A stretch of 33,799 bases of DNA from an uncultured Fretibacterium sp. (GTDB lineage Bacteria; Synergistota; Synergistia; Synergistales; Aminobacteriaceae). Positions 1-31,612 of the stretch are shown here, piece after piece (positions within the stretch are counted from its first letter, which is position 1; every line of letters begins with the position of its first letter). The notes under the pieces were generated by a model. The model saw only the letters and a program-made list of their open reading frames with translations, was not told where the DNA came from and did not search any database. A program made the position numbers and the translations under genes. Location of the stretch: positions 1 through 33,799 of the forward strand of contig CAMHMH010000012.1 of NCBI GenBank assembly GCA_946186205.1. Reading direction: 5' to 3'.

Positions 1-272
1 AAGTAATTGACGCAGTGGAGCTTCTGAGCGAAAGCCGAGATATGGAGAAGGCCGCCAAAGAACTCTCCGATGAGGCAAAAGCCGTCCTTGACAGGGAAGT
101 CCGCAAACAGGGCATTAAGTCTCTCAGAGCTGGAAATCTCGTCCTCGTCCTGAATGAGATTAAGAGTTCCAGACTGGACACAACTGCGCTCAAGAAGGCT
201 CATCCCGAATTGGTCAGCGAGTTTATGAAGCAGTCATCCTCAGTGAGGTACGATTTGAAGGAGGTCGCTTAA
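1..272 (+). CDS. C-terminal part of Cas4/RecB-like nuclease (rest at 33070-33799)
   Basis: This is the tail of the nuclease gene cut by the linear representation; the first whole codon in the window begins at position 3. It supplies about 89 residues after the C-terminal cysteine cluster, a mostly charged helical segment ending DLKEVA. An in-frame GTG at 15 looks like a start only because the contig was opened there; it has no Shine-Dalgarno sequence. The stop at 270-272 is followed one base later by the ATG of the Sak4-like gene at 274, and the AAGGAGG just before the stop probably initiates that gene. The two are therefore translationally coupled. Joined across the junction the protein is 318 residues. 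Confidence 0.88.
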   Translation, partial: VIDAVELLSESRDMEKAAKELSDEAKAVLDREVRKQGIKSLRAGNLVLVLNEIKSSRLDTTALKKAHPELVSEFMKQSSSVRYDLKEVA

Positions 273-7750: not shown

Positions 7751-7783
7751 TGAAACTTACCCTCCATATTTCATTCAGCACGT

Positions 7784-12912: not shown

Positions 12913-12914
12913 CT

Positions 12915-13601: not shown

Positions 13602-13628
13602 CACCCAAGTCCTTGAGTACAGCACTTC

Positions 13629-16827: not shown

Positions 16828-16858
16828 TAACGCCCATGTATTCTCGTATATATCTTAA

Positions 16859-16875
16859 TGATACAATACTTATCA
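16859..16875. promoter_or_regulatory. TGATA-N7-TATCA dyad before replicon 1
   Basis: A perfect 5-bp inverted repeat, TGATA (16859-16863) and TATCA (16871-16875), spans a TACAAT that could be a -10 box at 16862-16867; the -35 region is poor. It lies 27 bases before the RelB/DinJ-like gene and may be its autoregulatory operator, paralleling the dyad before replicon 2. Confidence 0.35.
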
Positions 16876-16901
16876 CTTCGACTAAAAGGAGTTGATTGTA
16901 T

Positions 16902-17111
16902 ATGTCTGTTGCTACTATCATCGCTCGCGTTGACGCTGACGACAAACGTAATTTCAGTGCTTTCTGTTCCTCTGTCGGACTCAATGTCTCTGTTGCCATT
17001 AACATTTTCATCAAAACTGTTCTGCGTGAGAATCGCATTCCCTTTGACATATCGGGAACTTCTCAAACTACGCGCAACATTTCAAATCACGATGAGGGCA
17101 TTCATGAGTAA
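16902..17111 (+). CDS. RelB/DinJ-like ribbon-helix-helix protein, replicon 1
   Basis: A 69-residue protein. MSVATIIARVDADDKRNFSA then FCSSVGLNVSVAINIFIKTV, followed by LRENRIPFDI, is the RelB/DinJ ribbon-helix-helix pattern of type II antitoxins. AAGGAG lies about 10 bases before ATG 16902; an upstream TTG 16896 is too close to it. No RelE/YafQ toxin follows. Instead the stop overlaps the Rep start (ATGAGTAA), so the protein is translationally coupled to Rep. The inference is that it regulates replication (a copy-number repressor) rather than neutralising a toxin. Replicon 2 has an equivalent small RHH gene before its Rep. Confidence 0.78.
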   Translation: MSVATIIARVDADDKRNFSAFCSSVGLNVSVAINIFIKTVLRENRIPFDISGTSQTTRNISNHDEGIHE

Positions 17112-18174
17112 ATCTTACAGAACAAAGGCTATTGCTAAGAAAGATAATCCTCTTGTACCTTGCCCGGAGAGACTCGCCGTTCCTACCCTGCCAAACTATG
17201 AATACAGCATCAGCCTTCATCAGGATGGAAAAGCATATTTGCAGAACCTCTCTGTCAGCACCGATGGTCTACAGTTTGAGAACGGCAAGATGTTTTTCAA
17301 TGGAGAACTCGAACCTATAAGTACAGTTGAGCTTCAGGACATGCGTACTAATGAAGGCATTGAAGAAATTGATATTCCTCTCCTCACTATGTACTACAGC
17401 ATTATTCTCGCCTCATTTCAGGAAAGAATTAAGCAGGGATGTGATTTCAGGATTGCCACTGACATGATTACCAGAATCTACGCTCCTGACCTCATAAAAT
17501 GCTTTGGAACTCTTAGTGAAGGCAGCGGAGTTAATGAAGAAAAAATCTCTGCGATCATGAGGAAAACAAGAGCATTCCACACTATTGTCGGAATACATCA
17601 CATTACAAGAAACGGAAAGCCGGATAAAAGCTTTTTCCCTCTTATGAACTTTGAGGGCTATGATTCTAAAACTAACACCATCTCTTTCTTCAGCCCGTAC
17701 CTCAGCTACATCGTCAAAGAAATATACTCCGCCTCAATCAGGTGCGACAAGAAAGGCAACCCCAGAATCAAACGAAACGGTCAGCCTATGCTCTTTCCCA
17801 GCAATTCATACCTCATAAAACCTTCTATCGTCTCTGAACGCAACAAAGCAGCCGTTGAAAATGTCTTTATCATCGTTCAGCTTATTGAACAGGCCGGAGA
17901 CAAGGGAATTCCTCACATCAAAGCTAAAACTCTCATCGAGCGCAACGAAGCTCTCATGCTTAGACTTAAAACAGACACTCACCCTAACCGCCTGTTAAGC
18001 AGAGTCTTCAAGAAAACTTGGCAGCTTTTGCGCGAACAGACGCTACTTCTTGAGGTTTATGAATACATCGAACTTCCTGACCCCAATGACATCGAGCAGA
18101 TTCCTACTTTCGGCAATTTGGATCATGTCTTCAACTTCAGGCACAACGGCAAAAAAAAGAATGTACGCACCTAA
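17105..18174 (+). CDS. Replication initiator Rep, replicon 1
   Basis: A 356-residue protein directly before four perfect 22-bp iterons, which identifies it as the initiator. Two wHTH-like regions are likely: about residues 75-230 (IDIPLLTMYYSIILASF, SFFSPYLSYIVKEIYSAS) and 240-340 (NKAAVENVFIIVQLIEQAG, LLSRVFKKTWQLLREQT). This two-winged-helix layout is typical of iteron-binding Rep proteins, though I cannot assign a named family. GAGGG precedes ATG 17105, which overlaps the end of the RHH gene. Its layout and several helices parallel the replicon 2 initiator, with low overall similarity. It is expected to bind the iterons and load the primase-helicase encoded at 18908. Confidence 0.78.
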
Positions 18175-18254
18175 TTTGCACGGCATTTTACAAAAAATTT
18201 TATGGCATTTTTATAACTGCTTATAACAACTGCTGTTAGGAATGTGAGGGTATT

Positions 18255-18342
18255 AGAAAATCGCTCTGAAGTGGGCAGAAAATCGCTCTGAAGTGGGCAG
18301 AAAATCGCTCTGAAGTGGGCAGAAAATCGCTCTGAAGTGGGC
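18255..18342 (+). repeat. Four perfect 22-bp iterons, replicon 1
   Basis: The 22-base unit (AGAAAATCGCTCTGAAGTGG plus GC) occurs four times without gaps or mismatches at 18255, 18277, 18299 and 18321. Unit length equals two helical turns, the hallmark of Rep-binding iterons in theta plasmids. They lie 80 bases after the Rep stop. They are not a CRISPR array, because there are no variable spacers. Confidence 0.95.
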
Positions 18343-18405
18343 AGAAGGCATTTGCAGAAACAGTGATGAACACTAAAACTAGCTCCTCTTCTGCATTCCT
18401 AATAA

Positions 18406-18427
18406 ACTAGTACCCTAATGTACTAGT
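18406..18427. repeat. Inverted repeat ACTAGTAC/GTACTAGT
   Basis: Perfect 8-bp arms (18406-18413 and 18420-18427) around CCTAAT, 64 bases after the iterons. It may be a binding site or cruciform within the origin. Confidence 0.6.
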
Positions 18428-18432
18428 AACGG

Positions 18433-18456
18433 GCGGGGTCCACTGTGGACACCCGC
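18433..18456. repeat. GC-rich inverted repeat in oriV
   Basis: GCGGG-GTCCAC-T-GTGGAC-A-CCCGC: 11 paired bases with a one-base centre and one bulge. With the preceding inverted repeat it forms a palindrome cluster typical of origins, possibly a nicking, primosome-assembly or protein-binding site. Confidence 0.55.
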
Positions 18457-18746
18457 ACCCCGTCCGCGTATAGTGAGTCCGGGGTTAACCACAGAAAAAG
18501 ACGAAAGGCGTGGAAGAATTTCTCGCTACGCTCGAAATTCTCAGATTGAAGTTCCCGCCCCCCACCCCTAACCCCCTCTTAAAGTCAAAAGCCTTGTCCA
18601 CAGAACCCCTCGCTCCTTTGACCCGCGAGGGGTCTCAGGTAAGAAGAAGTTTGTCGGTAACCCAGAGGTTCGAGGCAAGGATAAGTTCGAGGAAAACCCC
18701 GGGTATCCGGGGAACGCGCAAAGAGGCTGAAGGGTAGGGAGAAAGT

Positions 18747-18845
18747 AAGCGACCAACGGGAGCGTTGTAGAGGGGAAAAAGATTCCGGGAAAAAAGGAGC
18801 GACCAACGGGAGCGAATCAGAGGAGAAAGTCCGAACTTCGGGAAA
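18747..18845. repeat. Imperfect ~50-bp purine-rich tandem repeat
   Basis: The 17-base core AGCGACCAACGGGAGCG occurs at 18748-18764 and 18798-18814. Each copy is followed by a G/A-rich tail (AGAGG, GAAA, CGGGAAAAA), giving two imperfect units of about 50 bases. It has no coding character and lies just before the primase-helicase ribosome site. The role is unknown; it may be part of the origin. Confidence 0.6.
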
Positions 18846-18907
18846 AATCGGAAGAGGGAATACACCCCTATTCCCCTGTGGATAGTTGAGAGGAGGAAAA
18901 AACCGAA

Positions 18908-20821
18908 TTGTTGCGTGATGTGTGCGAATTGTTGGTTGAATTGCGACAATTGCGGCAATGGGTATCTTATTGTCGAGTGTGGAATGCGGGCAAGGGCAGG
19001 TACGATAAATTGCCGGTGAACCCGCATGACGGCTCAAATGCGAAGGCCAATGACGCGCGGACATGGGGAACGTTTGATGAAGCGCGGCGGTATGCGGTAG
19101 AAAATGGCTTCACAGGGAATGCAGGCGGTATAGGATTTGAGTTTGCAAATGGGTATGCAGGAATTGATCTTGATGATGTAATTGTTGCTGGGGGAACGTT
19201 GAAGCCGTTTGCGGCGGAAGTAGTGCGAATTATGGAGAGTTACACGGAGTATTCACCAAGCGGCAAGGGGCTGCATATCTTGTTTAAGCTGAATGAGCCA
19301 TTATCGGAGTTTGGAACACACAGACGTAATGATGAGCTTGGAATTGAGATGTACGATAGTGGGCGTTTCTTCACAGTAACAGGCAATGTGTACGGAGAAG
19401 CGCGGCCAGTCTCAGAACGTACAGAAGCAGCGCAGAAAGTGTATGCCAAGTATTTGGCTAAGTCTCAGAGTCAAGGAGCGGAAAAGGTGCTTTCAGATGT
19501 CTCAGAGAGAGTTAATCTTGAAGACTTGTCTGGCAATGACTTGCTTGAGAGGATGTTCAGCTCGCTTCATGGAGCAGAGATACGCGGGTTGTACAATGGC
19601 GATGTATCAGGTTACGGAGAAGATGACAGTCGTGCAGACTTGGCATTGTGCAGTTACTTGGCGTTCTGGACGAATAACGATTTGCAGATGATGGACAGCC
19701 TTTTCCGCAAGTCGGGATTAATGCGCTCTAAGTGGGACGAGAAGCGCGGAAATCAGACATACGGAGCGATGACACTGGCGAAGGCGTTAATAGCGGGAGA
19801 AGGATATAGGAGCATAAATGCGAGTAAATCATATGTGAGAGAGATTACAACCCCTGAGATAAAAACCTTGCCTCAAGTAGTTACGGAAGCTGATAGAATA
19901 TCGAGTATCAGCAAATATGTAGAGAGTGAGGGCGGTGAAGTAACGCTAGAAATGGAGCTGGAAAGGTTTAGCAAGTACCGAGACCGCAAGACTGGTTATA
20001 GCAACTTGGACGCGAAGATGAGCCTTTATCCCGGGCTTTACGTTCTTGGCGCGATAAGTTCACTGGGCAAAACGACGTTCTGCGGACAGATGGCGGATCA
20101 GTTAGCGTTTGCTGGGGAACATGTGTTTTATTTCTCGCTTGAGCAGACGCGGCTTGAATTGGTAACGAAGGGGCTGTCGCGTCTGATGGCGCAGGCGGAT
20201 ATGCGTAATGCGCTGACCTCAATGGAAATCCGGCGTGGGATAAAGTCGGAGGCGTTGAAAGCGGCGCGGGAAGTCTATGTATCACGCGGAAAGAATGAGT
20301 ATATAGTGGAATGTGGGTTTGACACGAACGTTGATGTGATAGTAGGAACGGTGAAAGACTATATATCGCGCACAGGAGTGAAGCCAGTAGTGATGGTGGA
20401 CTACCTGCAAATAATAACGCCCGTGAGTACGCACCAGACGACCAAAGATGTAGTAGACTACAACGTGCGTGCGCTGAAGAAGTTACAGACGGAGAATGAT
20501 TTGGTAGTACTGGTAATCTCCTCGCTGAACCGGCAGAACTATCTGACTCCGATAGACTTCTCCTCGTTCAAGGAGTCCGGAGGAATCGAGTATACGGCGG
20601 ATGTGATATGGGGATTGCAGTTGAGTATAATGAATGAGGAGCTTTTTGACCGTGAAGCGAAACTGAAGGCCAAGCGAGAGGCAGTGAAGGAGGCCAAAGT
20701 GGCGCACCCGCGTGAAATCGAGCTAGTGTGCCTGAAAAACCGTTACGGAATAAGCAGTTACAGCTGTAACTTCAAGTACTACGCGAAGTATGATTTGTTC
20801 GTGCCTGAGAGAGATGCATGA
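18908..20821 (+). CDS. Fused primase-polymerase and DnaB-like helicase, replicon 1
   Basis: A 637-residue protein. The N-terminal half is an archaeo-eukaryotic-type primase/PrimPol: catalytic acidic motif GIDLDD (85-90), SPSGKGLHIL (116-125) and GRFFTVTG (152-159). The C-terminal half is a RecA-fold DnaB/RepA-like helicase: Walker A GAISSLGKTT (381-390), Walker B VVMVDYLQI (494-502), ISSLNR (537-542) and SGGIEYTADVIWGL (557-570). It is expected to unwind and prime plasmid DNA at the origin. TTG 18908 is chosen for the AGGAGG 11 bases upstream. A close paralogue serves replicon 2 at 27001-28923, with about three-quarters identity around the Walker A region by eye but divergent linkers. Confidence 0.88.
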   Translation: MLRDVCELLVELRQLRQWVSYCRVWNAGKGRYDKLPVNPHDGSNAKANDARTWGTFDEARRYAVENGFTGNAGGIGFEFANGYAGIDLDDVIVAGGTLKPFAAEVVRIMESYTEYSPSGKGLHILFKLNEPLSEFGTHRRNDELGIEMYDSGRFFTVTGNVYGEARPVSERTEAAQKVYAKYLAKSQSQGAEKVLSDVSERVNLEDLSGNDLLERMFSSLHGAEIRGLYNGDVSGYGEDDSRADLALCSYLAFWTNNDLQMMDSLFRKSGLMRSKWDEKRGNQTYGAMTLAKALIAGEGYRSINASKSYVREITTPEIKTLPQVVTEADRISSISKYVESEGGEVTLEMELERFSKYRDRKTGYSNLDAKMSLYPGLYVLGAISSLGKTTFCGQMADQLAFAGEHVFYFSLEQTRLELVTKGLSRLMAQADMRNALTSMEIRRGIKSEALKAAREVYVSRGKNEYIVECGFDTNVDVIVGTVKDYISRTGVKPVVMVDYLQIITPVSTHQTTKDVVDYNVRALKKLQTENDLVVLVISSLNRQNYLTPIDFSSFKESGGIEYTADVIWGLQLSIMNEELFDREAKLKAKREAVKEAKVAHPREIELVCLKNRYGISSYSCNFKYYAKYDLFVPERDA

Positions 20822-20840
20822 TTATGGAGGCTTTAGAATG

Positions 20841-20897
20841 TAGCAGTTGGCGAGAGTATGAAAGTGGTCGAGTATAGTGATAGCTCGCCGACTGTTG
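20841..20897. terminator. Long hairpin between convergent genes
   Basis: CAGTTGGCGAG (20844-20854) pairs with CTCGCCGACTG (20884-20894), with one G-U pair. The stem extends by further wobble and A-U pairs to about 14 bp around a 29-base loop. It lies between the ends of the primase-helicase (+) and the ParB-methyltransferase (-). There is no U-tract on either side, so it may be a 3'-end structure or a protein site rather than a rho-independent terminator. Confidence 0.4.
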
Positions 20898-20938
20898 AAA
20901 GACGGTATAGGAAACTTCACATACTTTCTCTGATTGTC

Positions 20939-22603
20939 TCACATCTCCCAACTTCTTTCATTAGCGATCTGTTCTTCTATAAAATCCTCAGGAGCGGCCA
21001 TGTGCCAATATACATATTGTCCGTTGTATTTTGTATTGAATTGGTCTTCATCGGAGAGAGCTTCAAGGTCAGGGAAGAGTTCAAGGGCTTGTAGGTCTCC
21101 TAGTAAGCGAACAGTAACTTCCTTAAAGCATTCAGGTTTGACGTAATCAGGCTTTGCTCTGTCTTCTTCTATGGTATATGGAACAACTTGCGGGATTCTG
21201 TCGTTGATGCGCTGGATCGTTCCTTTTGTAGCCAGTAAGCAAAATTCAGCGTTCTCACAAGTCCAGTCGCTATTTAGATTGAAATAATAAGCTTGTTTTC
21301 CGTTATCATCTTCAGTTGTTTTTGCCCACACAAATACTATGGTTCTGTAGGTGAAACCCCATTTGTTGATAATCTTCATAGCTTCCTGCATCAGGGAAGC
21401 CTTGACCCACAAGAGCAATGCACAATTCTCATCAGCGACCCGCGCCACAGGTAACTCGAGTAATTCTTCTGTAGATTGATAACTATCCCAATCTGGATCA
21501 GCGTAGATTATTTTGTAGCGGAGGTCTGTTTTGTAGATACTGATTCTTGTATACTCCTCATATTCATTATATTCTTCAAATATATCACGTTCATCGTCGT
21601 CATAATCGTCAGGGTTGCTTTCTTCCTCATAATCATGTTGATCATATTGTGTGGTGCTTTCATAGTCTTGCTCGTTTTGCGATGGTTGCCAAGTCTCATT
21701 GTCTGAAGGCTCGGTAACTTCTTCCTGCTGAAGTTGTTCGGGTATCTCCTTATGCTGTATCTGTGCCTCTTGTGTAGTAGAGACTTCCTTCGGTTGCCTC
21801 TCTTCATTCATGGTTGCAGAATTAGCCTCATGTTGAGAGTTTAGCTCCTCATTGCGGAATGAAGCCTCAGAGGTAGTTGATTGAGGTTGTACGTAATCGG
21901 CAGAGTTCGCAGTATTAGTATCAGGTTGAGATTTTCGGTTGCGAGATCTGACTTGAGAAATGACAGACTTAGCAGATTCGCCCTGTTCAATACGTTGAGC
22001 AATCTCCGACTGTTGAGGCACAGGAAGTTTAGTAATCTCATAAGCTGCATTAATTGAAATTTGATTATTGCGAGCGGCATTGACGATGGTGGTAGGAGCA
22101 TGGTCGATAACTTTAGTAGCGTGTTCGTAGGTAGAACCAGATACCCCAGCGAGCTTGCCAAGTTTATCACGAGATTGTTCTGTTTCACTTTCAGGTAATT
22201 TTACCTGAATGTTATCTCCTTGATTAACATTAGGAGAGAATAAATCATTACGAGTTCCTTGGCGTAGTTTAGCGAGAGCCTTAACAGCATTCTCATACTT
22301 GCGAACAATCTCAATGCGCTGAAAATCATTAAGGTTGCGCCTAGCCAACTGATTTTGAATCATCCATAGAAAGACCTCTTTGCGCGAGGCGAACTCCTTT
22401 TGAGCGATCTGAAAGTCGATATTGTGCATCTTGCAGATTTTGAATCTGTGATGACCATCAACGATGATGCCGTTCCAAGTGATGATAGGGTCGCGGCAGC
22501 CCTCAGCGATGATGCTCTGTTCCAAGCGACTATATTCATCGTCAGTCAGCGGCGGAATCAAAGCGGCAAATTCCTCATCAATCCTTAGCTCTCGTGTACT
22601 CAT
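20939..22603 (-). CDS. ParB-like domain fused to MT-A70-type methyltransferase with altered DPPW
   Basis: A 554-residue fusion. Residues 15-95 are a ParB/sulfiredoxin-like domain (LTDDEYSRLEQSIIAEGCRD, then GIIVDGHHRF). Residues 100-225 are helical, with a ParB-type HTH (KLGKLAGVSGSTYEHATKVI). Residues 225-350 are Gln/Glu/Asp-rich and disordered. Residues 360-530 form an MT-A70-like domain (YKIIYADPDW at 363-372, ALLLWVKASLMQEAMKIINK, TIVFVWAKT). MT-A70 enzymes make N6-methyladenine with a DPPW motif; here it reads DPDW, so activity is doubtful or altered. ATG 22603 has GGAG 12 bases upstream. It is divergent from the recombinase gene. No ParA partner is present; likely DNA modification or regulation rather than classical partition. 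Confidence 0.8.
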   Translation of the reverse strand: MSTRELRIDEEFAALIPPLTDDEYSRLEQSIIAEGCRDPIITWNGIIVDGHHRFKICKMHNIDFQIAQKEFASRKEVFLWMIQNQLARRNLNDFQRIEIVRKYENAVKALAKLRQGTRNDLFSPNVNQGDNIQVKLPESETEQSRDKLGKLAGVSGSTYEHATKVIDHAPTTIVNAARNNQISINAAYEITKLPVPQQSEIAQRIEQGESAKSVISQVRSRNRKSQPDTNTANSADYVQPQSTTSEASFRNEELNSQHEANSATMNEERQPKEVSTTQEAQIQHKEIPEQLQQEEVTEPSDNETWQPSQNEQDYESTTQYDQHDYEEESNPDDYDDDERDIFEEYNEYEEYTRISIYKTDLRYKIIYADPDWDSYQSTEELLELPVARVADENCALLLWVKASLMQEAMKIINKWGFTYRTIVFVWAKTTEDDNGKQAYYFNLNSDWTCENAEFCLLATKGTIQRINDRIPQVVPYTIEEDRAKPDYVKPECFKEVTVRLLGDLQALELFPDLEALSDEDQFNTKYNGQYVYWHMAAPEDFIEEQIANERSWEM

Positions 22604-22708
22604 GGCGCGTAATCACTCCTTTGAAAAATTCAGGGGGAAAAGTCAGGGCGGAAATTTTATCATTTTGGGGGATAGAAATCAATATCGGTAACATTGCCGT
22701 ATCAGTAT

Positions 22709-22714
22709 TATAAT
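22709..22714 (+). promoter_or_regulatory. TATAAT -10 box before the recombinase
   Basis: A perfect TATAAT whose expected start (about 22721) falls 2-3 bases before ATG 22724. No Shine-Dalgarno sequence precedes this ATG, so a leaderless mRNA is possible. The -35 region (CGGTAA) is poor. Confidence 0.4.
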
Positions 22715-22723
22715 ATAGTTATT

Positions 22724-23716
22724 ATGGACGCAGATAATTCACTTGTTACGGTTGAAAAATATACCCCAGATGTGTCGGATTTATCCGATTACAGCGGCAG
22801 GATCCGTTATCTTGTAGAAGCCTCAGTAGCCTCTGAGACTCGACGCGCATACACCTCACGGCTGAAACGGTTTGCTTGTTGGTGCAATGAGAAGGGATTG
22901 AGTTGCACGTATCCGATTGCGCCAGAAATCTTAGCGATGTACATAACGGACATGGCCGTAGACGGATTATCGAATGCGACAATAACTCAGACAATGGCGG
23001 CGATCTCAACGACGCATAAGGCGCAGGGACTAACTTCGCCGACGGAGAGCCTGCTGGTGAAGAAGGTTCTGAAAGGCTTTTGGCGAGAATACGGTACAGC
23101 GCATAAGAAGCATGACGCAGCGACGGTTGAGGTGGTGCGCTACCTTCTGAAATCGATCCCCGATGACAATTCCCCTAAAAATATTCGGGACAAAGCGATA
23201 ATTGCGCTGGGGTTCGCGGGAGCGTTCCGGCGTTCAGAGTTGTGCGCGATAGATGTAGAGCATCTGAAGTGGGTATTTCGCGGAACACAAGAGATTTTGC
23301 TGATAGAGGTAGAACGCTCGAAGACCGACCAAGAGGGGCGCGGAATGACGAAGGCGATATTTCCGAGTCAGGATAAAACTGTATCACCGACTGAGCTGTT
23401 AAAGAGGTGGCTGAATATTCGCGGTTCTTATGGCGCACTGTTCACGCGGATATTGAAAGGAGAGCATATGACGGACGAACGCCTTACCCCGCAGAGTGTA
23501 CGATTAATAGTGAAACAGACAGCGGCGAGGGCAGGATTGTCGCTCGACCTGACAGCGCACAGCCTGCGCTCCGGGTTCGTAACGACAGCAATCCGGCAGG
23601 GAAAAACGGAACGGTCTATAATGAACCAAACAGGCCATAGATCAACGCAAGTGTTGCGAGAGTACTTCCTGCGCGAGGATGCAATCGAGGATAACGCGGC
23701 AGATAATATAATTTGA
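22724..23716 (+). CDS. Tyrosine recombinase/integrase
   Basis: A 330-residue protein with the core-binding SAM-like domain (about 20-110) and a C-terminal catalytic domain. Arg is in GAFRRSEL, a Lys candidate in VERSKTDQEG, His-x-x-Arg in LTAHSLRSGF, His in QTGHRS and the nucleophilic Tyr in LREYFL. All key residues appear present. ATG 22724 is taken as start; TTG 22694 lies before the -10 box and would be untranscribed from that promoter. On a plasmid it could resolve multimers or the cointegrate of the two replicons, or mobilise cassettes. No attachment site was recognised. It is followed closely by the AAA/PD-(D/E)XK gene. Confidence 0.88.
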   Translation: MDADNSLVTVEKYTPDVSDLSDYSGRIRYLVEASVASETRRAYTSRLKRFACWCNEKGLSCTYPIAPEILAMYITDMAVDGLSNATITQTMAAISTTHKAQGLTSPTESLLVKKVLKGFWREYGTAHKKHDAATVEVVRYLLKSIPDDNSPKNIRDKAIIALGFAGAFRRSELCAIDVEHLKWVFRGTQEILLIEVERSKTDQEGRGMTKAIFPSQDKTVSPTELLKRWLNIRGSYGALFTRILKGEHMTDERLTPQSVRLIVKQTAARAGLSLDLTAHSLRSGFVTTAIRQGKTERSIMNQTGHRSTQVLREYFLREDAIEDNAADNII

Positions 23717-23736
23717 TGTAAAGGAGCTGACGTAGA

Positions 23737-25305
23737 ATGAAAAAGCTGCCGATAGGAGTACAGGACTTTGTACAATTAAGGCAGGATAACCTGTTATACG
23801 TAGATAAGACCGGGATACTCAAAGAGTTAATCGAGAACGGAAGAAGATATTTTCTCTCGCGCCCTCGCCGGTTTGGAAAGTCATTAATGCTCTCAACATT
23901 AGACGCGATGTTCAGGGGGCGCAAAGAGTATTTCAAGGGACTTGCGGCGGAAGAATGGGTAACCCGGCAGTCAGAGAATCCTTCACCAGTACTGAGGTTC
24001 GATATATCGTCGTTGAAACTAACAGACTCAGTAACGATAGAACAGGCATTAAGCGAAATGATAGAGCGAACAGCCCGAAGGAATAAAGTAGAATTACATA
24101 GTCAAAGCATGACAGGCAAATTAATAGATTTAATCGAGGAAATATCATCTCAAGGGCAGGTTGTAGTGCTTGTAGACGAATACGACAAGCCGATACTGGA
24201 CAACCTATCGGACATAAAGAAAGCGCACGAAATGCGAGAAGTGCTGCGCTCGTTCTATACGGTGCTGAAGAGCTGTGATGAGTACCTTCGTTTTGTGTTG
24301 ATAACGGGCATCTCAAAATTCAGCAAGATGGGCGTGTTCTCAGCGATGAATAACCTTGAGGATATATCAATGGACAAAAGTTGCGGAGATATAGCAGGGT
24401 ACACGCAAAGTGAGTTGGAATACTACTTTGCGGACTGGCTTGAAGCGGCCTCAGCGGACATGGGAATAACGCATGATGAGCTAATCGAGCGTCTGAGAGA
24501 TTACTATGACGGCTTCAGCTTTGACGGTCGGACGAGACTGTATAATCCGTTCTCAATCCTTCAGTGCCTGAAGAAGGGAGAGTTCCGGAATTACTGGTAC
24601 GAGAGCGGCTCGCCGTCATTCATCGTGGAATGGATGAAGGAACACCAAATCTTAGACCCCGAAGAGTACCGGCACATAGTAATCAACAGCAATGACTTCA
24701 TAAGCGCACAAGAGATAGAGCAGGCGGACGCGGCAAGTTTCCTGTATCAGAGCGGTTATCTGACAATCGAGAAGAAAGAGGAGCTGTTGTTGACGCTGGA
24801 CTATCCCAATCGTGAAGTCAGAAACTCATTGTCAAGCATGTACCTGAAGCTGGTATATCGGGTAGAAGGTTACGCGCTTCTGGGCAATCAAATCTGGAAG
24901 GCGTTGCGTGAGGGAGATATACCTGAAATCGTGAGGCTGTATAACACTGCGCTTGCTGGAGTAGCCTACGATGACTACACGACTCCGGGAAGCAAAGAGC
25001 GCGACCCACGAAATGAATTTTGGTATCGCTCAATGTTCGTAATGCTGTTGCGTGGAGCTGGAATAATCTCGTATAGTGAGCCTCATACCTCAAAGGGACG
25101 GGCTGATGTAGTAATCCAGTTCAAGAATCTGACGGTAGTACTGGAGTTCAAAATATCGAAAACGAGCGCGGGTGTCGAAGAGATGAAACGTGTAGGCGCA
25201 CAGCAGATAGTGGAGCGCGGTTATGCGGAGACTTACGGTGGCGACGGGCGCGAGATAATTACGGCGGTACTTGTTGCAGACGCAGAGAAACGAGAGGTGA
25301 AATAG
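23737..25305 (+). CDS. AAA-ATPase-like / PD-(D/E)XK nuclease fusion (PF09820 + DUF1703 type)
   Basis: A 522-residue protein. It begins with the family's LPIGVQDFVQLRQDNLLYVD segment, then the P-loop variant SRPRRFGKSLMLSTL (residues 41-55) and a Walker B VVLVDEYDKPI (about 142-152). The C-terminal PD-(D/E)XK domain carries RADVVIQF and VVLEFKI (the Asp and Glu-x-Lys). This is the abundant PF09820/DUF1703 family of anaerobes and Bacteroidetes. Its function is unsettled; mobile-element or defence roles are suspected. It overlaps nothing and has a usual length. The stop (TAG 25303-25305) directly abuts the TTG start of the Rpn gene, so they are co-translated. Confidence 0.88.
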   Translation: MKKLPIGVQDFVQLRQDNLLYVDKTGILKELIENGRRYFLSRPRRFGKSLMLSTLDAMFRGRKEYFKGLAAEEWVTRQSENPSPVLRFDISSLKLTDSVTIEQALSEMIERTARRNKVELHSQSMTGKLIDLIEEISSQGQVVVLVDEYDKPILDNLSDIKKAHEMREVLRSFYTVLKSCDEYLRFVLITGISKFSKMGVFSAMNNLEDISMDKSCGDIAGYTQSELEYYFADWLEAASADMGITHDELIERLRDYYDGFSFDGRTRLYNPFSILQCLKKGEFRNYWYESGSPSFIVEWMKEHQILDPEEYRHIVINSNDFISAQEIEQADAASFLYQSGYLTIEKKEELLLTLDYPNREVRNSLSSMYLKLVYRVEGYALLGNQIWKALREGDIPEIVRLYNTALAGVAYDDYTTPGSKERDPRNEFWYRSMFVMLLRGAGIISYSEPHTSKGRADVVIQFKNLTVVLEFKISKTSAGVEEMKRVGAQQIVERGYAETYGGDGREIITAVLVADAEKREVK

Positions 25306-26145
25306 TTGGCAGTGAACGACGAGTATAAAGACCGAGTATTCAAATACCTGTTCGGCAATCCAGCGAATCGAGAGTGGACGCTTGCGCTTTACAACGCAGT
25401 GAACGGCTCAAGCTACGAGAATGCCGATGATATACAGTACAATACAATCGAAGACGCGGTGTATTTGGGAATGAGGAACGATGTATCGTTCATAATAGTA
25501 GAGGAGCTGCATTTGTGGGAACATCAGAGTACATCCAATCCGAATATGCCGATGAGATTCCTGCTGTACGCGGCGAAATTGTACGAGAAATACATTGCCG
25601 GAAGTGATTACTACCCGTACAGCAGCGTGTTGCAACCTGCACCGCGTCCGAAGTGCGTATGTTTCTACAATGGAACGGGCAATCAGCCTGAGCGAAAAAT
25701 CCTGCGTCTGAGTGAGGCGTTCGGGGGTGAAGGCGATATAGAGGTTCTCGTTACCATGCTGAACATCAACTACGGTAAGAACAAGGCATTGATGGCAGCG
25801 TGTGAACCATTGAGCGAATATGCGTGGCTTGTTGAGGCAATCAGAGCAAATCAACTTACGATGAGAAATCTTGAGGCGGCAATAGACGCGGCTATTGATG
25901 AAATGCCCGATGAGTTTGTAATCAAGAGATTTCTGTTGCAGAATCGAGCGGAGGTGAGGGGAATGTTTCTGACGGAATATGACCAAGAAAAAGTGTTGTC
26001 GCAAGCGGTAAATGAAGACCGCAGACGGGTAGCCACTGATATGCTGATAGAGAAATTACCGCTCCCGTTAATAGCGAAAATTAGCAAGCTCTCGGAAGAC
26101 GCGATCCGGACGCTGGCCAATAGTCTTGGAATGAGTATAGTATGA
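25306..26145 (+). CDS. Rpn-family recombination-promoting nuclease
   Basis: A 279-residue PD-(D/E)XK protein of the Rpn (YhgA-like) family. The N-terminal KDRVFKYLFGNPANREW and the core NDVSFIIVEELHLWEHQST carry the catalytic Asp and Glu-x-Gln, followed by NMPMRFLLYAAKLYEKYI. The C-terminal half is helical and ends LANSLGMSIV. Rpn proteins are Ca-dependent DNases that stimulate RecA-independent recombination. The TTG start follows the preceding stop with no gap; a GTG 2 codons further (25312) is an alternative. With the upstream recombinase and AAA/nuclease gene it forms a + strand DNA-processing cassette. Confidence 0.85.
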   Translation: MAVNDEYKDRVFKYLFGNPANREWTLALYNAVNGSSYENADDIQYNTIEDAVYLGMRNDVSFIIVEELHLWEHQSTSNPNMPMRFLLYAAKLYEKYIAGSDYYPYSSVLQPAPRPKCVCFYNGTGNQPERKILRLSEAFGGEGDIEVLVTMLNINYGKNKALMAACEPLSEYAWLVEAIRANQLTMRNLEAAIDAAIDEMPDEFVIKRFLLQNRAEVRGMFLTEYDQEKVLSQAVNEDRRRVATDMLIEKLPLPLIAKISKLSEDAIRTLANSLGMSIV

Positions 26146-26648
26146 TACAGTTACGGTAGTATGGCACAATGGCGATAATTCATTGAGAGGCTCAAAATTC
26201 GCTGACGGAACGAGGCGAGCCTGATTGAATATCGCAATCGACGAAAGCGCGGTATACGACTCAAGCGGTATGAATGACCAAATAAGGCGTGTTAATCGTC
26301 GATAAGCGCGTAATGCGTTGAAAGCGATTCGGCGTTAGTGGTATTTAACGGCAAAAGGAATTGTCATGATTGTCATACGTTGTAAACGTTGAAATACGCG
26401 CAAGTTGCGTGATGACGCAGTATACGTGGTAATTGTCATAGGTCATTAGGCATGACGTGCCTTACGCGAGAGCGTTGCGCTACCATGCACGATAGCGCGG
26501 AAGTTCCATTTGTGGCCTTAACGACGGAGAAACGTATAAGTGCTTGGAGCGTCTGGCGCGATGATGTCCATCGTGCGAAGGTGCGCACCCCCTTCATGAG
26601 GAAGTATCGTGCTATATGCGGCGTGCAGTGGGTTGTGTTGGAGCGCGA
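26146..26648. other. Gene-free 500-base stretch with short repeats
   Basis: No convincing gene is seen on either strand. The stretch is rich in ACG/GCG words. ATTGTCAT occurs three times (26360, 26369 and 26432). TGCGT-GATG-ACGCA (26406-26419) and GCGCTA-N10-TAGCGC (near 26485-26510) are short inverted repeats. A 79-codon + frame (26452-26691) lacks a ribosome site. The stretch may be decayed sequence or hold replication or recombination sites between the Rpn gene and replicon 2. Confidence 0.5.
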
Positions 26649-26975
26649 TTACGAAAGTTGCCGTTTGATGCTCTTGATGGTGCGACGTTGAGCTGTACGA
26701 GTGTCATAGCAGTACGTTGTAGTGCGCGAGGTTCGATGAGTACGAGCTTCTCCCTTCATGGCGATGAGGCGCACGTGGCACGATGAACGAGGGCGCGAGA
26801 AGCCTGCCTCATCGAGAACCTTGTAGAAGTCGCGCTGATTGCGAGCAGTCTCATCGTTACGGGCGCAATAATCGCGATAAGCCCGATAGACCGCGCTTGA
26901 TTGTTCCGAAGCGTCATGAGCTACCACGCAACAGTTGGAAAACACATTAAACACAAGTAACGCAGGCTGCCTCAT
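26649..26975 (-). CDS. Orphan D5-like C-terminal winged-helix protein or fragment
   Basis: Up to 108 residues. The segment AVYRAYRDYCARNDETARNQ, then RDFYKVLDEAGFSRPR, resembles the C-terminal winged-helix domain of D5/P4-type primase-helicases. No ATPase part is attached. ATG 26975 lacks a good ribosome site and lies in the loop of a GC-rich hairpin (26962-26993). The C-terminal 40 residues are Thr/Arg-rich and unstructured-looking. It lies 25 bases after the replicon 2 primase-helicase on the same strand. It could be a small separately encoded DNA-binding subunit or debris of a lost helicase gene. Confidence that it is translated is low. Confidence 0.4.
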   Translation of the reverse strand: MRQPALLVFNVFSNCCVVAHDASEQSSAVYRAYRDYCARNDETARNQRDFYKVLDEAGFSRPRSSCHVRLIAMKGEARTHRTSRTTTYCYDTRTAQRRTIKSIKRQLS

Positions 26976-26993
26976 GTTGTGAAAGCAACCTGC
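26962..26993 (-). terminator. Hairpin after the primase-helicase 2 gene
   Basis: On the - strand GCAGGTTGC (26985-26993) pairs with GCAGCCTGC (26962-26970), 9 bp including one G-U pair, with a 14-base loop. The G-U pair exists only in the - strand RNA, in keeping with - strand transcription. The following GTTACTTGTGTTT is a weak U-tract. Confidence 0.5.
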
Positions 26994-27000
26994 TGTGAAA

Positions 27001-28923
27001 TTAGTACGCTTTTCGCTGACGTGCGTTCGATGCAAAGTCTTCGTGGCAGAAGATGTCGCTTCTAGCGGCAAAATAGTCAAATTGCGCGTAGTAGTTGAAT
27101 TTGCATGTATATGTCGGCTTACCATGGCGGTTTTTTAGGCATACGAGGTCAACTTCACGGGGAAGTTGTGATTTAGCCTGCCGAACCGCTTCACGCTTTG
27201 CCTTCAATCCCTTCTCCTTGTCAAAAACTTCATCATTATTCATGACACTCAACTGAAGCCCCCATATCACATCGGCAGTGTACTCAATGCCGCCGGATTC
27301 CTTGAAACTCTCGAAATCGACAGGAGTTAAGTAATTAGAACGGTTCAAAGAACTAATGAGGAGAAGGACTAAATCATGTTCAACCTGCAACTTCTTAAAA
27401 GCCCTCAAGTGATCATCAATAACATCTTTAGTATTGTGAGCGGCATTAATAGGTCTGATTATCTGGAGATAATCAACAATAACAACGGGCAGCACATCAT
27501 GCTCCTTAATGTAATTATCGACACAATCAATGATGGTACGGATTGTAGTATCAAAGCCGCATTGATAGATTACAATGTTTCGTCCGAAACTTTTGTATTT
27601 CTCTATAGCCTGCAAAACGGCAGGAGTTCTTACGCCCTCGCGTATTCTCATAGCAGTAACCGCTGTAGATATGTCAGATTTTGCAGTCAAACGCGATAAA
27701 CCTTTCGTTATCAGTTCAAATTTCGACTGCTCAAGGGAGAAGTATAGTACATGTTCACCCGCAACGGCGAGCTGGTCAGCGAGTTGGCACGCGAACGTAG
27801 TCTTGCCCAATGAACTTATCGCGCCGAGTACATACAATCCGGGATATAAATTAGTCTGTTCGTCAAGATTAGCAAACCCCGTTTTTCTGTCTTTGTATTT
27901 TGCAAATCTGTTTGTATCATTTTCAAGAGAATCGTTGAGATATTGAGTAATATCTTCTCCATTTGTCTCAGCAAGCGGTAAATCTTCAGAGGTAACAGAC
28001 TTAACAGCTTTTGATGGTACATCAGCGGCGTAATGAGGATCGTAGGTGCTTGTTAAACCGTCTAATGCTTGCCGTAATGTACGGTTTCTGTATTCTTGGT
28101 TGTTCCATTTATCACGCATGAGGCCAGATTTAGCAAATAAAGCGCATGTTTTGTCCACATTGCGATTAGTCCAGAATAACAAGTACGAGAGTAACGCCAA
28201 ATCCGCCTCGCTATGAGTAGCATAACCGCTTATGTCGCCGTTAAAGAGCCTTTCTATCTTGGCACCGTTCTTGCTGTGGAACATTTTATCGAGCAGTACT
28301 TGTTCTTCTGCTATTTCTCTCTGAATAATTCTGTATGGAGCCTCAAATGGAATTGTTCTTGATGGAGGCAAAGGGATCTGTGTTTCTTTTTCTGGCTTAG
28401 TGAAATATTGATTGTGAATTGCCTTGTACGCCTCAGTTCGTATTTCGATGGTTGAAAGGTCTCTGAATACATTTCCAGTGTAAGTGAAGAACCTTCTGTG
28501 ATTGTACATTTCAAGTGTACAAATCTCAGCAACTTTTGTTCTGTTACCGATGTCGTCTGTATTCGTGTAACATAGTATATGAAGCCCCGTACCGCTTGGG
28601 CTGTACTCAGTGTAGCTGTTCATAGATTGTACGATTTCTTCTGCGAACGGTTCAAGCGAGCCGTCTGCACGCACAACGTGGTCTAAATCTATTCCTGAGA
28701 GTCCAAAGTTATCAGAGGCTTTGAGGCCGAATTGTATTCCAATGCCGTCTAAGTTGTACATACGTTGAGCGTCTAGTGCCTCTTGGTAGGTTGCCCATGT
28801 TGAGGGGTCATTCGACTTGGCGCCGTACCTTGACTTCGGATTTATCGGCTGCTTGTTTTTATGACAGACCCAAATCGCGGAACTTGTAATTTCTGCTGGT
28901 AGTGGCGATGTTTGAGCGTTCAA
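27001..28923 (-). CDS. Fused primase-polymerase and DnaB-like helicase, replicon 2
   Basis: A 640-residue paralogue of the protein at 18908-20821, with the same order: primase motifs GIDLDHV, SPSGTGLHIL and RRFFTYTGN, then helicase motifs GAISSLGKTT, VVIVDYLQI, ISSLNR and SGGIEYTADVIWGL. TTG 28923 is chosen because AAAGGAG lies 9 bases upstream and the length then matches the paralogue; GTG 28974 would place that ribosome site inside the gene. Conservation is high around the helicase core and low in the linker between the domains, so the copies have diverged for long rather than duplicated recently. It is expected to serve the iteron origin at 29159. It is more A+T-rich than the replicon 1 copy. 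Confidence 0.88.
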   Translation of the reverse strand: MNAQTSPLPAEITSSAIWVCHKNKQPINPKSRYGAKSNDPSTWATYQEALDAQRMYNLDGIGIQFGLKASDNFGLSGIDLDHVVRADGSLEPFAEEIVQSMNSYTEYSPSGTGLHILCYTNTDDIGNRTKVAEICTLEMYNHRRFFTYTGNVFRDLSTIEIRTEAYKAIHNQYFTKPEKETQIPLPPSRTIPFEAPYRIIQREIAEEQVLLDKMFHSKNGAKIERLFNGDISGYATHSEADLALLSYLLFWTNRNVDKTCALFAKSGLMRDKWNNQEYRNRTLRQALDGLTSTYDPHYAADVPSKAVKSVTSEDLPLAETNGEDITQYLNDSLENDTNRFAKYKDRKTGFANLDEQTNLYPGLYVLGAISSLGKTTFACQLADQLAVAGEHVLYFSLEQSKFELITKGLSRLTAKSDISTAVTAMRIREGVRTPAVLQAIEKYKSFGRNIVIYQCGFDTTIRTIIDCVDNYIKEHDVLPVVIVDYLQIIRPINAAHNTKDVIDDHLRAFKKLQVEHDLVLLLISSLNRSNYLTPVDFESFKESGGIEYTADVIWGLQLSVMNNDEVFDKEKGLKAKREAVRQAKSQLPREVDLVCLKNRHGKPTYTCKFNYYAQFDYFAARSDIFCHEDFASNARQRKAY

Positions 28924-29017
28924 CGGTAAGAACTCCTTTCGCGCCAATACGGCGTTATTTGTTGATGAACACACTGGCTAGTTGCTGCTCTCTAGCGTGT
29001 TTAATATTATTGAACAA

Positions 29018-29046
29018 GTGGGGGCGGGACTACAGACCGCCCCCAC
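29018..29046. repeat. Perfect 10-bp GC-rich inverted repeat
   Basis: GTGGGGGCGG (29018-29027) and CCGCCCCCAC (29037-29046) around a 9-base loop. In - strand RNA it would end near TTGTTC, so it could act as a terminator after Rep2. It could equally be a single-strand initiation or protein site within the origin. Confidence 0.6.
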
Positions 29047-29053
29047 TACTATT

Positions 29054-29084
29054 AAGCTTATAAAGCTTATAAGGCTTATCCACG
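29054..29084. repeat. Three 9-bp repeats with a DnaA-like box
   Basis: AAGCTTATA (29054-29062), AAGCTTATA (29063-29071) and AGGCTTATC (29072-29080) run in tandem. The last continues into TTATCCACG (29076-29084), one mismatch from the DnaA consensus. This arrangement resembles a DnaA-assisted melting region. Confidence 0.6.
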
Positions 29085-29158
29085 AAACTGCAACATGCGC
29101 TGAAGCGTTATGAGTAGTAGCACGAGGTGCGATTTTTCGCTCGCGCAAATCCCCTAGA

Positions 29159-29235
29159 TATTGCACCCAACACCCCCGCTTATTGCACGTAATGCCCCTG
29201 TAGGTTGCACGTAATGCCCCCAGATATTGCACGCC
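29159..29235 (+). repeat. Four 22-bp-spaced iterons, replicon 2
   Basis: TTGCAC occurs at 29161, 29183, 29205 and 29227, exactly 22 bases apart, within units of the form TATTGCACGTAATGCCCC. The middle two are the best conserved; the outer two diverge after TTGCAC. They abut the end of the Rep2 gene. The sequence differs fully from the replicon 1 iterons, so the two initiators should not cross-recognise. Confidence 0.9.
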
Positions 29236-30168
29236 CTAAACCTTAATCGTAACTTTTGCCCTCGTCCGGCCTTCTTTGTCTTCCGAGTATGACGAGATGA
29301 AACCGGTACTAATCCATGCGTCAAGAAGAGTGAGGATATTCTTACGCACCTTCTCTTTCTTTTTAGCCAATGCTTTTGGAGTAGCGGCATGTATTCTCAG
29401 ATAGTCATAAACGGTAGAGTATCTGATAGTCGGACTAAGGTTGCTTTTTGAGTTCTTGATGCTCAAAATTCGCATTAACAGGTAGTCTTTAAGTTCGATG
29501 TTTTCACATGTATTTTTTATGGGAACTTTGAGCGTTTTTATATCAACAGAGCCGACTTGATTTTTTATGTCCGCGTAATCGAAAAGTGGCGGTTTCCTGA
29601 GAATATGAATACAGTCAAGAACTTCATTGCCATTGATGCGGACACCTTCAATACGTTCAGAGGGCAGAAGGCTTGATTTATATTTGAGTTTTTCGTAGCC
29701 GAATTTTTTTGCTTCTTCTGAGTTATCAATAGAAATTTCAGTATTTCTCATTTTATCAATACTTCTGAGTATAGCTTTTCTTATTTCAGGGCCTATTTCT
29801 CTGCTCTCGTTAGTATTGCCTGAAAGTAACTGAAATATAATTCTTGGAGTGAGAAACTCATTAAAGTTTTTCCCTTCTTGGTGTCCAGCGACCCATAGAG
29901 TAGCGACAGCATTGTGAACAGCTTTATCGAAAGGAGTGAGGCGGTCTTCGCGTTCAATTTTGACACCGTTTTTGCTGAGTTCCTTGAAGTCGATAGCAAA
30001 GAGAACTTGAATATTTTTTCTTTGAGCCTCTCGTCTGCTGACGTTGATAGCTCCGAGGGTTTCGTATAGCCCTTCGTTCTGAGTAGCGTCAAAAGCAATC
30101 CCTTCGACTTTAGTAGTACCGAACATATAGTTGCTTGCTCTTTTTGTAATGGCGTAAATTTGTCTCAT
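29236..30168 (-). CDS. Replication initiator Rep, replicon 2
   Basis: A 310-residue protein followed directly by the 22-bp iterons, which marks it as the initiator. Two winged-helix-like halves are likely (LTPFDKAVHNAVATLW, RKAILRSIDKMRNTEISI; later LKDYLLMRILSIKNS, VRKNILTLLDAWISTGFISS). It is the positional counterpart of Rep1 with little obvious identity. The upstream gene ends 3 bases before ATG 30168, and AGGAG directly abuts the ATG, too close for normal initiation. Translation probably depends on coupling from the RHH gene. It is A+T-rich compared with most of the window. Confidence 0.76.
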   Translation of the reverse strand: MRQIYAITKRASNYMFGTTKVEGIAFDATQNEGLYETLGAINVSRREAQRKNIQVLFAIDFKELSKNGVKIEREDRLTPFDKAVHNAVATLWVAGHQEGKNFNEFLTPRIIFQLLSGNTNESREIGPEIRKAILRSIDKMRNTEISIDNSEEAKKFGYEKLKYKSSLLPSERIEGVRINGNEVLDCIHILRKPPLFDYADIKNQVGSVDIKTLKVPIKNTCENIELKDYLLMRILSIKNSKSNLSPTIRYSTVYDYLRIHAATPKALAKKKEKVRKNILTLLDAWISTGFISSYSEDKEGRTRAKVTIKV

Positions 30169-30171
30169 CTC

Positions 30172-30336
30172 CTACGCGAAAAATTCTTGGTATTCTTTCA
30201 GGTAACGGGATATAGCCTCATTGATGACGGCAGTGGTGGAGTATCTTTTACCCGTCTCAAGCTGTTTGTATGCCGCAACGCTGTGCAACTGGTCGAGTAG
30301 TTCCGATTCGATGGCCAAACTGAAGAACTTTCTCAT
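30172..30336 (-). CDS. CopG-like ribbon-helix-helix regulator, replicon 2
   Basis: A 54-residue protein: MRKFFSLAIESELLDQLHSV, then AAYKQLETGKRYSTTAVINE and AISRYLKEYQEFFA. It has the RHH layout of a short N-terminal strand, a helix, a Gly-containing turn (TGKRYST) and a second helix, as in CopG/Arc-type repressors. A GAAAGG lies about 11 bases before the ATG. The stop is 3 bases before Rep2. It is inferred to repress its own promoter and so set Rep2 level and copy number; the CATGAA/TTCATG dyad at 30365-30381 lies just upstream and is a candidate operator. Confidence 0.75.
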   Translation of the reverse strand: MRKFFSLAIESELLDQLHSVAAYKQLETGKRYSTTAVINEAISRYLKEYQEFFA

Positions 30337-30364
30337 CTTCTCACAACCTTTCTTGTGTTATTTA

Positions 30365-30381
30365 CATGAAGTCTATTCATG
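30365..30381. promoter_or_regulatory. CATGAA-N5-TTCATG dyad, candidate RHH operator
   Basis: A perfect 6-bp inverted repeat (30365-30370 and 30376-30381) covers the expected start point of the - strand promoter for the RHH-Rep2 operon. That is the position where an autorepressor would bind. Confidence 0.55.
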
Positions 30382-30385
30382 ACTC

Positions 30386-30414
30386 CATATATTTGTTATG
30401 AGTGTGATTATCAA
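30386..30414 (-). promoter_or_regulatory. Promoter of the RHH-Rep2 operon
   Basis: On the - strand TTGATA (-35, 30409-30414) and TATATG (-10, 30386-30391) are 17 bases apart; start near 30379. TTGATA matches the consensus at 5 of 6 positions, and the first four bases of the -10 fit. Its position argues against the + strand gene starting at ATG 30398. Confidence 0.55.
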
Positions 30415-31070: not shown

Positions 31071-31096
31071 TGAATTTTATCAAGGAGGGAATATCA

Positions 31097-31543
31097 ATGA
31101 AACCGACAGAAGCGCAGAAGTTAAGAAAAGTACGTCTGTATCTGAACCTGACACAGAAAGAGTTGGGCAAACGTATAGGTCTTAGCGCAAGCACAATCTC
31201 CAGCTACGAGAACGAACGCAGAGGCGTATCAGTGAGAGTCCGCCATTGGGTGAATAAGATGTACAGGAAGCACCAGTTATCAAAGAAAGTAATCAAGTCC
31301 GCCCGTGAGAACACGTTATGCGCGTTCCGTCCAATGCAGTGCTACTCAATCAATGATGACGACAGAATACTTCATCGACACTTCGGCAGTCTGACCATAG
31401 GATACGTATTCCGATACGAGCGCACGGAGGGCATACATCACTGCTTCCGTGAAATTCGTGGCGGCTGGTCAAGAACGTACACCGACTGGCAGCTAGTAGA
31501 CAAACGAGTGCTTGAGGTACCGTACCTAGCAATGGCGGGCTGA
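31097..31543 (+). CDS. XRE-family helix-turn-helix protein with C-terminal extension
   Basis: A 148-residue protein. Residues 5-60 form an XRE/Cro-like HTH (LRKVRLYLNLTQKELGKRIG, then LSASTISSYENERRGVS). The C-terminal 85 residues, with several His, Trp and Tyr, are not recognised (HFGSLTIGYVFRYERTEGIH). ATG 31097 has AAGGAGGG at a good distance. Its position at the head of the operon, after a terminator, suggests that it regulates this gene group or the divergent Rep2 operon; no operator was identified with confidence. Confidence 0.78.
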   Translation: MKPTEAQKLRKVRLYLNLTQKELGKRIGLSASTISSYENERRGVSVRVRHWVNKMYRKHQLSKKVIKSARENTLCAFRPMQCYSINDDDRILHRHFGSLTIGYVFRYERTEGIHHCFREIRGGWSRTYTDWQLVDKRVLEVPYLAMAG

Positions 31544-31612
31544 CTTTAAGGGGGTGATAACTAACATACAACCGCGCCAATAGGAATTCAGAAAAAACGA
31601 AAGGAGCAAATC

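Follow-up and report, generated by a model that had tools for sequence, protein, structure and literature searches.

The DNA analysed here is contig C12 of an uncultured Fretibacterium sp. (Synergistota), taken over its whole length of 33,799 nucleotides and referred to below as the window. It carries two complete replicons that lie on opposite strands and share the same gene order, as a first-pass annotation had proposed: a gene for a ribbon-helix-helix (RHH) protein, a gene for a putative initiator (Rep), four 22-bp iterons and a gene for a primase-helicase (PH). All of these parts were found on one circular contig, replicon 1 on the plus strand and replicon 2 on the minus strand. With a probability of about 0.8, we consider this molecule to be a circular two-replicon plasmid in which replicon 1 is the long-term origin and replicon 2, acquired by cassette exchange, is selected but subordinate.

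The circular molecule and its long-term origin

The window is the whole of C12, which belongs to a 2.75-Mb genome (99.7% complete, 19 contigs). Positions 1..45 are identical to 33755-33799, giving an exact 45-bp terminal repeat at the circle joint (no strand assigned). The reading frame is intact across the joined ends, and four related sequences (G023:C174, G023:C38, G000:C14 and a stretch of G000:C3; the L062, L184, L183 and C14 set) continue unbroken through the joint. On the basis of this overlap, the in-frame joint gene and the four relatives running through it, the window is a complete circular plasmid of 33,754 bp from a Fretibacterium-like Synergistota. Contigs C16 and C17 of the same genome are also circular, with 55-bp overlaps; each has a single replicon, a primase-helicase-type gene of its own and repeats of 21-22 bp. 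Same-genus relatives in the named collection were Fretibacterium and Synergistaceae metagenome-assembled genomes (MAGs), several of them ruminant-derived.

The first-pass annotation had proposed GC skew as a check on which origin fires, and a single switch was found, at the replicon-1 iterons, which is evidence on the long term. Cumulative GC skew is lowest at 18,624 and highest at 2,355, that is 16,269 bp apart compared with a half circle of 16,877, and its range was reached by none of 2000 block shuffles. Skew at third codon positions, where protein constraint is mostly absent, changes from -0.395 in rep1 to +0.362 in the gene for PH1, same-strand neighbours on either side of the iterons. 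In a gene-wise model the fitted origin was best at about 17.75-18.5 kb; an origin at 18 kb leaves a sum of squared errors of 68 out of 241, and one at 29 kb leaves 221. Gene orientation was rejected as the cause of the skew, as the coding effect was about 0 with a fitted origin and -0.04 when the replichores were preset, whereas the replichore effect was 0.19-0.20. The expected flip was also seen in the single-replicon contigs C17, G023:C50 and G026:C45 and in a copy of replicon 1 on C3. No switch was detected at replicon 2 (29.2 kb), either here or in G023:C348, a separate contig of another species that carries a 95% identical replicon-2 segment (Rep -0.35, PH -0.16). PH2 has the skew expected if forks from replicon 1 pass through its gene. 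Because the skew flips at its iterons and the opposite extreme lies about half a circle away, replicon 1 has served as the long-term origin of this molecule, with forks running in both directions; replicon 2 has been, over the long term, a passenger in the right replichore of replicon 1.

When the window was compared with G023:C348, dN/dS (the ratio of nonsynonymous to synonymous substitution rates) was 0.058 for Rep2 and 0.257 for PH2, and the replicon-2 iteron region was nearly unchanged. These low ratios and the conserved iterons speak for an intact replicon 2 that is functional under purifying selection, though not for its firing in this molecule.

Exchange at the replicon sites and alternative explanations

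The sites occupied by the two replicons have other contents in relatives. In G023:C50, the replicon-1 flanks (window 16311-16828 and 20843-22638) enclose a Rep2-type replicon with other iterons. The replicon-2 flanks were found at about 148-158 kb of C3, a contig that is chromosomal, since it bears 8 tRNA genes. There, a 790-aa D5-type primase stands directly behind the RHH2 orthologue and occupies the place of Rep2, the iterons and PH2. Broken pieces at the replicon-2 site of G010:C19 look like the same D5-type primase. In the primase-helicase tree, PH1 and PH2 are placed apart, each grouping with proteins of other plasmids (the PH2 group is fully supported, the wider PH1 group moderately), which rules out duplication of the primase-helicase within the plasmid, and the Rep type switches at least four times on this tree. 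Since the same flanks hold either a D5-type primase (C3) or a Rep2-type replicon (G023:C50), cassette exchange is favoured over plain plasmid fusion. The two sites thus appear to be replication loci with exchanged cassette contents, and replicon 2 most likely arose by such an exchange.

A 91% identical copy of window 16644-22635 is present on C3 at about 231.3-237.1 kb (G000:C3:231313-237137, L055:9569-15393). In this copy, codon 97 of rep1 is a nonsense codon and two of the four iterons are left, both identical to those of the plasmid. An active plasmid origin inside a chromosome is expected to be harmful, and the iterons remaining in this copy could titrate Rep1. Two further remnants of related plasmids were observed on C3 (L183:4454-14408 and L077:4855-10703), one of which keeps its D5-type primase intact at the replicon-2 site.

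The following mechanism is proposed. At each replicon, the dual-winged-helix Rep would recognise the four 22-bp iterons beside its gene and open the neighbouring AT-rich DNA, on which the fused PrimPol-helicase encoded by the plasmid would be loaded. This enzyme would then unwind and prime the DNA, with less need of the host DnaG and DnaB, and the upstream RHH protein probably represses the operon. Replicon 2 is probably a second, differently specified origin, useful if replicon 1 is blocked or in other hosts, and it may offer a way round titration of Rep1 by the crippled chromosomal copy in the same genome.

The first-pass annotation had suggested a stable cointegrate of two related plasmids. 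A true cointegrate, in which two independent plasmids were fused whole and both origins still share the work, would agree with two oppositely oriented replicons with different iterons, with the replicon-2 segment on a separate contig of another species and with the other single-replicon circles (C16, C17) of this genome. We nevertheless regard it as unlikely: the skew indicates one origin only, the replicon-2 flanks are unchanged around the D5-type primase so that the cassette alone differs, and the segment in G023:C348 has an equally subordinate skew and looks resident in a larger plasmid. The replicon flanks were not found to come from separate parental plasmids, and no long repeats mark a fusion, the longest repeat in the window apart from the iterons being 17 bp. 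This short length also makes a misjoin between replicons 1 and 2 unlikely. An assembly chimera, whether of two plasmids or of a plasmid with the chromosome, is the least probable of the explanations considered and very improbable in itself. The overlap lengths are typical of short-read assembly, and the 5.5-kb block with 91% identity to a chromosomal contig includes a 437-bp exact match that could confuse an assembler; however, the circle is closed, the skew is continuous across both replicons and the chromosomal copy continues into unrelated chromosomal genes on either side. The circular joint, together with the flanks kept around replicon 1 in G023:C50 and replicon 2 in G023:C348, also answers the misjoin of separate molecules that the first-pass annotation had named as able to overturn its proposal.

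A slightly better case than for the cointegrate, though still an improbable one, can be made for replicon 2 being a relic whose genes are intact by recency and which is unable to start replication. The missing skew switch at 29.2 kb, the fork-crossed skew of PH2 and the degeneracy of the replicon-2 iterons (12/22 identical columns, versus 22/22) would all be explained; the dN/dS values and the almost unchanged iterons in the two genomes are not, and imperfect iterons are found among relatives too. Several points weigh against our own reading, a replicon-1 origin with a selected, exchanged second cassette. Skew averages evolutionary time and is silent on present-day firing, and some of it may predate the plasmid in its present form. 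The rep/PH skew contrast is weak beyond the host genus, with the expected direction in 20/33 loci, and was rejected as a general rule. The estimates of selection on replicon 2 come from a single pair of genomes, the fold assignment of the Reps stands on predicted models with TM-scores of 0.2-0.4, and the role of replicon 2 in escape from incompatibility is one that we infer.

Components of the two replicons and neighbouring genes

Replicon 1 starts with RHH1 (16902..17111, plus strand), a RelB/DinJ-type regulator (Pfam RelB, 4.5e-10; NCBIfam TIGR02384, above cut-off) whose 3' end overlaps the start of rep1. Rep1 (17104..18174, plus strand) is a putative iteron-binding initiator of 356 aa with a winged-helix fold, as judged from an AlphaFold2 model and its PDB fold matches; the gene had been called correctly and its start had not, the ATG being at 17104 rather than 17105. 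The predicted origin oriV1 consists of four perfect 22-bp iterons, AGAAAATCGCTCTGAAGTGGGC (18255..18342, plus strand), identified by repeat analysis with the GC-skew minimum nearby and identical in 22/22 columns over the four units. The rest of oriV1 (18343..18907, plus strand), delimited by sequence scan, is an AT-rich stretch with a ACTAGTAC hairpin at 18406-18427, a GC-rich hairpin at 18605-18633 and DnaA-like boxes at 18485, 18594 and 18877, each with one mismatch. PH1 (18908..20821, plus strand; 637 aa) is, from Pfam, PDB and motif evidence, an NrS-1-type PrimPol fused to a DnaB-type helicase (NrS1-1_pol-like_HBD 8e-27, DnaB_C 1.6e-23).

Replicon 2 is arranged likewise on the minus strand. 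A dyad, CATGAA-5-TTCATG (30365..30381, no strand; sequence scan), lies upstream of RHH2 and is a possible RHH2 operator. RHH2 (30172..30336) is a CopG-like regulator (phrog_3180 Arc-like repressor, 1.8e-5), which also stands before the D5-type primase at the corresponding C3 site. Rep2 (29236..30168; 310 aa) is a second putative iteron-binding initiator with a winged-helix fold, assigned from the same kinds of evidence as Rep1. The predicted oriV2 (29144..29235), found by repeat analysis and kept in G023:C348, has four degenerate 22-bp iterons with the core GTGCAA...GGGG, 12/22 columns being identical over the four units. A sequence scan of 29000..29100 revealed a GC-rich hairpin (29017-29047), an AT-rich TATAAGCTT stretch and a DnaA-like box at 29076. 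PH2 (27001..28923; 640 aa) is a PrimPol fused to a DnaB-type helicase according to Pfam, PDB and its similarity to PH1.

To judge the iterons, 40 first-order Markov versions of the window were searched for their best four-unit array of any period from 18 to 26; these had at most 7 identical columns, against 22 and 12 in replicons 1 and 2, so that both arrays are real, as claimed in the first reading. Its GC-rich palindromes in both replicons are borne out by the two hairpins above. Of the dyads that it placed before each RHH gene, the one of replicon 2 was recovered and no perfect 6-bp dyad precedes RHH1. The DnaA-like boxes are present at the four positions given above and are weak as evidence, because 14 such boxes with one mismatch occur over the whole window.

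PH1 and PH2 are paralogues with 48% identity, in line with the original proposal. Their N-terminal halves match the NrS-1 PrimPol domain (PDB 6a9w, 7ola) and their C-terminal halves match DnaB chains; DxD, PSGxGxH-like and Walker motif residues are conserved in the alignment. The expected divergence of the other parts was also observed: Rep1 and Rep2 showed no relation by sequence or profile comparison, RHH1 and RHH2 have no sequence similarity, and the iterons differ. Neither Rep matched a Pfam or NCBIfam family, Pfam Rep_3 included; among 16 Rep1 relatives, one had a match to Rep3_N, at 0.043. Searches of PDB sequences with the two Rep profiles yielded no meaningful match. In the AlphaFold2 models (predicted local distance difference test score 85 for Rep1 and 80 for Rep2), tandem winged-helix domains are predicted for both Reps, as in initiators of iteron theta replicons, and direct repeats within the 18-24 bp range of such replicons lie beside both rep genes. 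The best PDB fold matches were RctB domains 2-3 and RepE for Rep1, and RctB domains 2-3 for Rep2 (E 4.7e-5). Probabilities were 0.8-1.0 and TM-scores modest (0.2-0.4), for which reason the models suggest a shared winged-helix iteron-initiator fold class and not a close kinship to RctB or RepE.

Beyond PH1, a gene for an MT-A70 methylase-like protein (20939..22603, minus strand; Pfam MT-A70 1.1e-13, blastn of flanks) borders replicon 1 in the window, on C3 and in G023:C50. Active MT-A70 members are expected to carry a DPPW motif. The motif reads DPDW in the window and APSW in the C3 copy, and the protein may lack methylase activity. Homology to C3 and G023:C50 stops at about 22638, and a tyrosine recombinase gene (22694..23716, plus strand; Pfam Phage_integrase 1.8e-17) lies directly beyond this right edge. 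No clear pair of core sites was seen at the edge of the replicon-1 block near the recombinase; there was only a common AATATCGG(T/C)AAC end.

Elsewhere in the window, a minus-strand operon (4961-15236) encodes an Hsp70-like ATPase, an unknown protein, a DUF87 HerA-like ATPase, another unknown protein, an LHH nuclease, a small protein and a Sel1/SH3 protein, and in its make-up resembles a toxin or defence operon. An XRE-type gene lies on a 512-bp segment (31087-31599) that is present here and in C14 and absent from C3, G023:C38 and G023:C348, with an 8-bp overlap at the joint.

The module in other genomes and in known plasmids

With the primase-helicase and the Reps as starting points, relatives of the module were gathered from genomes and collections of viral contigs; in 36 loci, a primase-helicase gene is preceded by a gene of the Rep1 or Rep2 family. 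An array of 20-24 bp units lies between the two genes in 33/36 loci (22 bp in 26), with a mean of 3.84 copies; elsewhere in the same loci there were 0.012 arrays per kb, which is about 150 times rarer per kb. Imperfect arrays occur among them. The hosts include Synergistota, Bacillota (Lachnospiraceae, Bacillus), an alphaproteobacterium and a methanogen, a Methanosarcina MAG. By inspection, RHH-like proteins of type RATFIVKVDLLEKLKDYAYTERLSLKD are common upstream of Rep, and an HTH_17 gene often stands between the RHH-like gene and Rep (12 such small proteins). In G023:C50, no RHH gene was observed in front of Rep, and the RHH gene of the replicon-2 site is retained when a D5-type primase occupies that site. 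The order Rep, iterons and primase-helicase therefore survives from the four-part module first proposed, and the RHH gene is not a fixed part of it. Judged from these loci, the module is real and widespread, often with an upstream RHH gene, and its layout is of a known kind that is mostly unannotated. In a plasmid collection, Rep1 had no match and Rep2 had one. Contig G026:C58 (L065:1-11270) repeats itself after about 6974 bp, so that one helicase gene with its iterons is present in two copies; such a pattern would fit a dimer or multiple passes around a small circle. In the literature searched, we found no paper on this module as such, and nothing on plasmid replication in Synergistota, a topic that appears little described.

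Read from Rep to PH, the pentamer AAGTG occurs in 17/35 units from the list of iteron arrays (9/15 Rep1-type, 8/20 Rep2-type), the commonest pentamer of shuffled iterons never exceeding 8; the units are not fully independent and the effect size is approximate. It is present in the replicon-1 iterons and not in those of replicon 2. SCCmec iterons bound by Cch2 also contain AAGTG (PMC7581432). As initiator families unrelated in sequence act on iterons with this core and are themselves exchanged between the same primase-helicases, AAGTG might be read by the shared primase-helicase, in loading or primer start, and not by Rep alone, the second replicon being kept to escape titration by the dead chromosomal origin copy; we offer this as a speculation with rather long odds.

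Replicon typing that relies on protein families would overlook the module, since the Reps fall in no Pfam or NCBIfam family. The plasmid makes it possible to test why two origins are kept, whether incompatibility can be imposed by a dead origin in the chromosome and whether an own PrimPol-helicase gives freedom from host priming factors.

Among known systems, multireplicon plasmids such as IncF (FIA, FIB, FII) and pPsv48C of Pseudomonas savastanoi likewise carry, on one molecule, two complete replicons of different specificity and exchange replicon modules (PMC11983097, PMC5304414). Here, in contrast, each replicon has its own fused PrimPol-helicase, the host is a Synergistota and the second cassette sits at a D5-primase site. 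The primase-helicases of SaPI and SCCmec resemble those of the window in an N-terminal PrimPol related to PDB 7ola and, in SCCmec, in the AAGTG iterons (PMC7581432), but there the helicase itself binds the iterons, whereas here a separate Rep accompanies a DnaB-type helicase. The Chlamydia plasmid, compared by its paper's description only, encodes an RctB/RepE/pi-like iteron initiator (Pgp2) beside a DnaB-type helicase (Pgp1) and Xer-like recombinases (PMC11895440); unlike here, the helicase is without a PrimPol part and there is one replicon. A similar layout is found in pSMQ308 (S. thermophilus), pSTERM02 (Sebaldella) and NZ_CP033812 (Staphylococcus haemolyticus), which combine a Rep, 3-4 repeats of 21-22 bp, a primase-helicase with DnaB_C and a tyrosine recombinase, with one replicon each in place of two. 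The gene order of pSMQ308 and pSTERM02 is that of the window module with different Reps, and pSMQ308 differs further in its Toprim primase, instead of PrimPol, and its Pfam-recognised Rep_3; the initiator of NZ_CP033812 belongs to the Rep2 family. IncQ plasmids such as RSF1010 also combine an iteron-binding protein with their own helicase and primase, encoded as separate RepA, RepB' and RepC, and replicate by strand displacement. In the window plasmid, primase and helicase are fused, and the skew argues for two-way theta forks. Plasmids with two replicons are thus already known; what is new here is that both modules carry a PrimPol-helicase fusion, that the host is a Synergistota and that there is evidence of cassette exchange.

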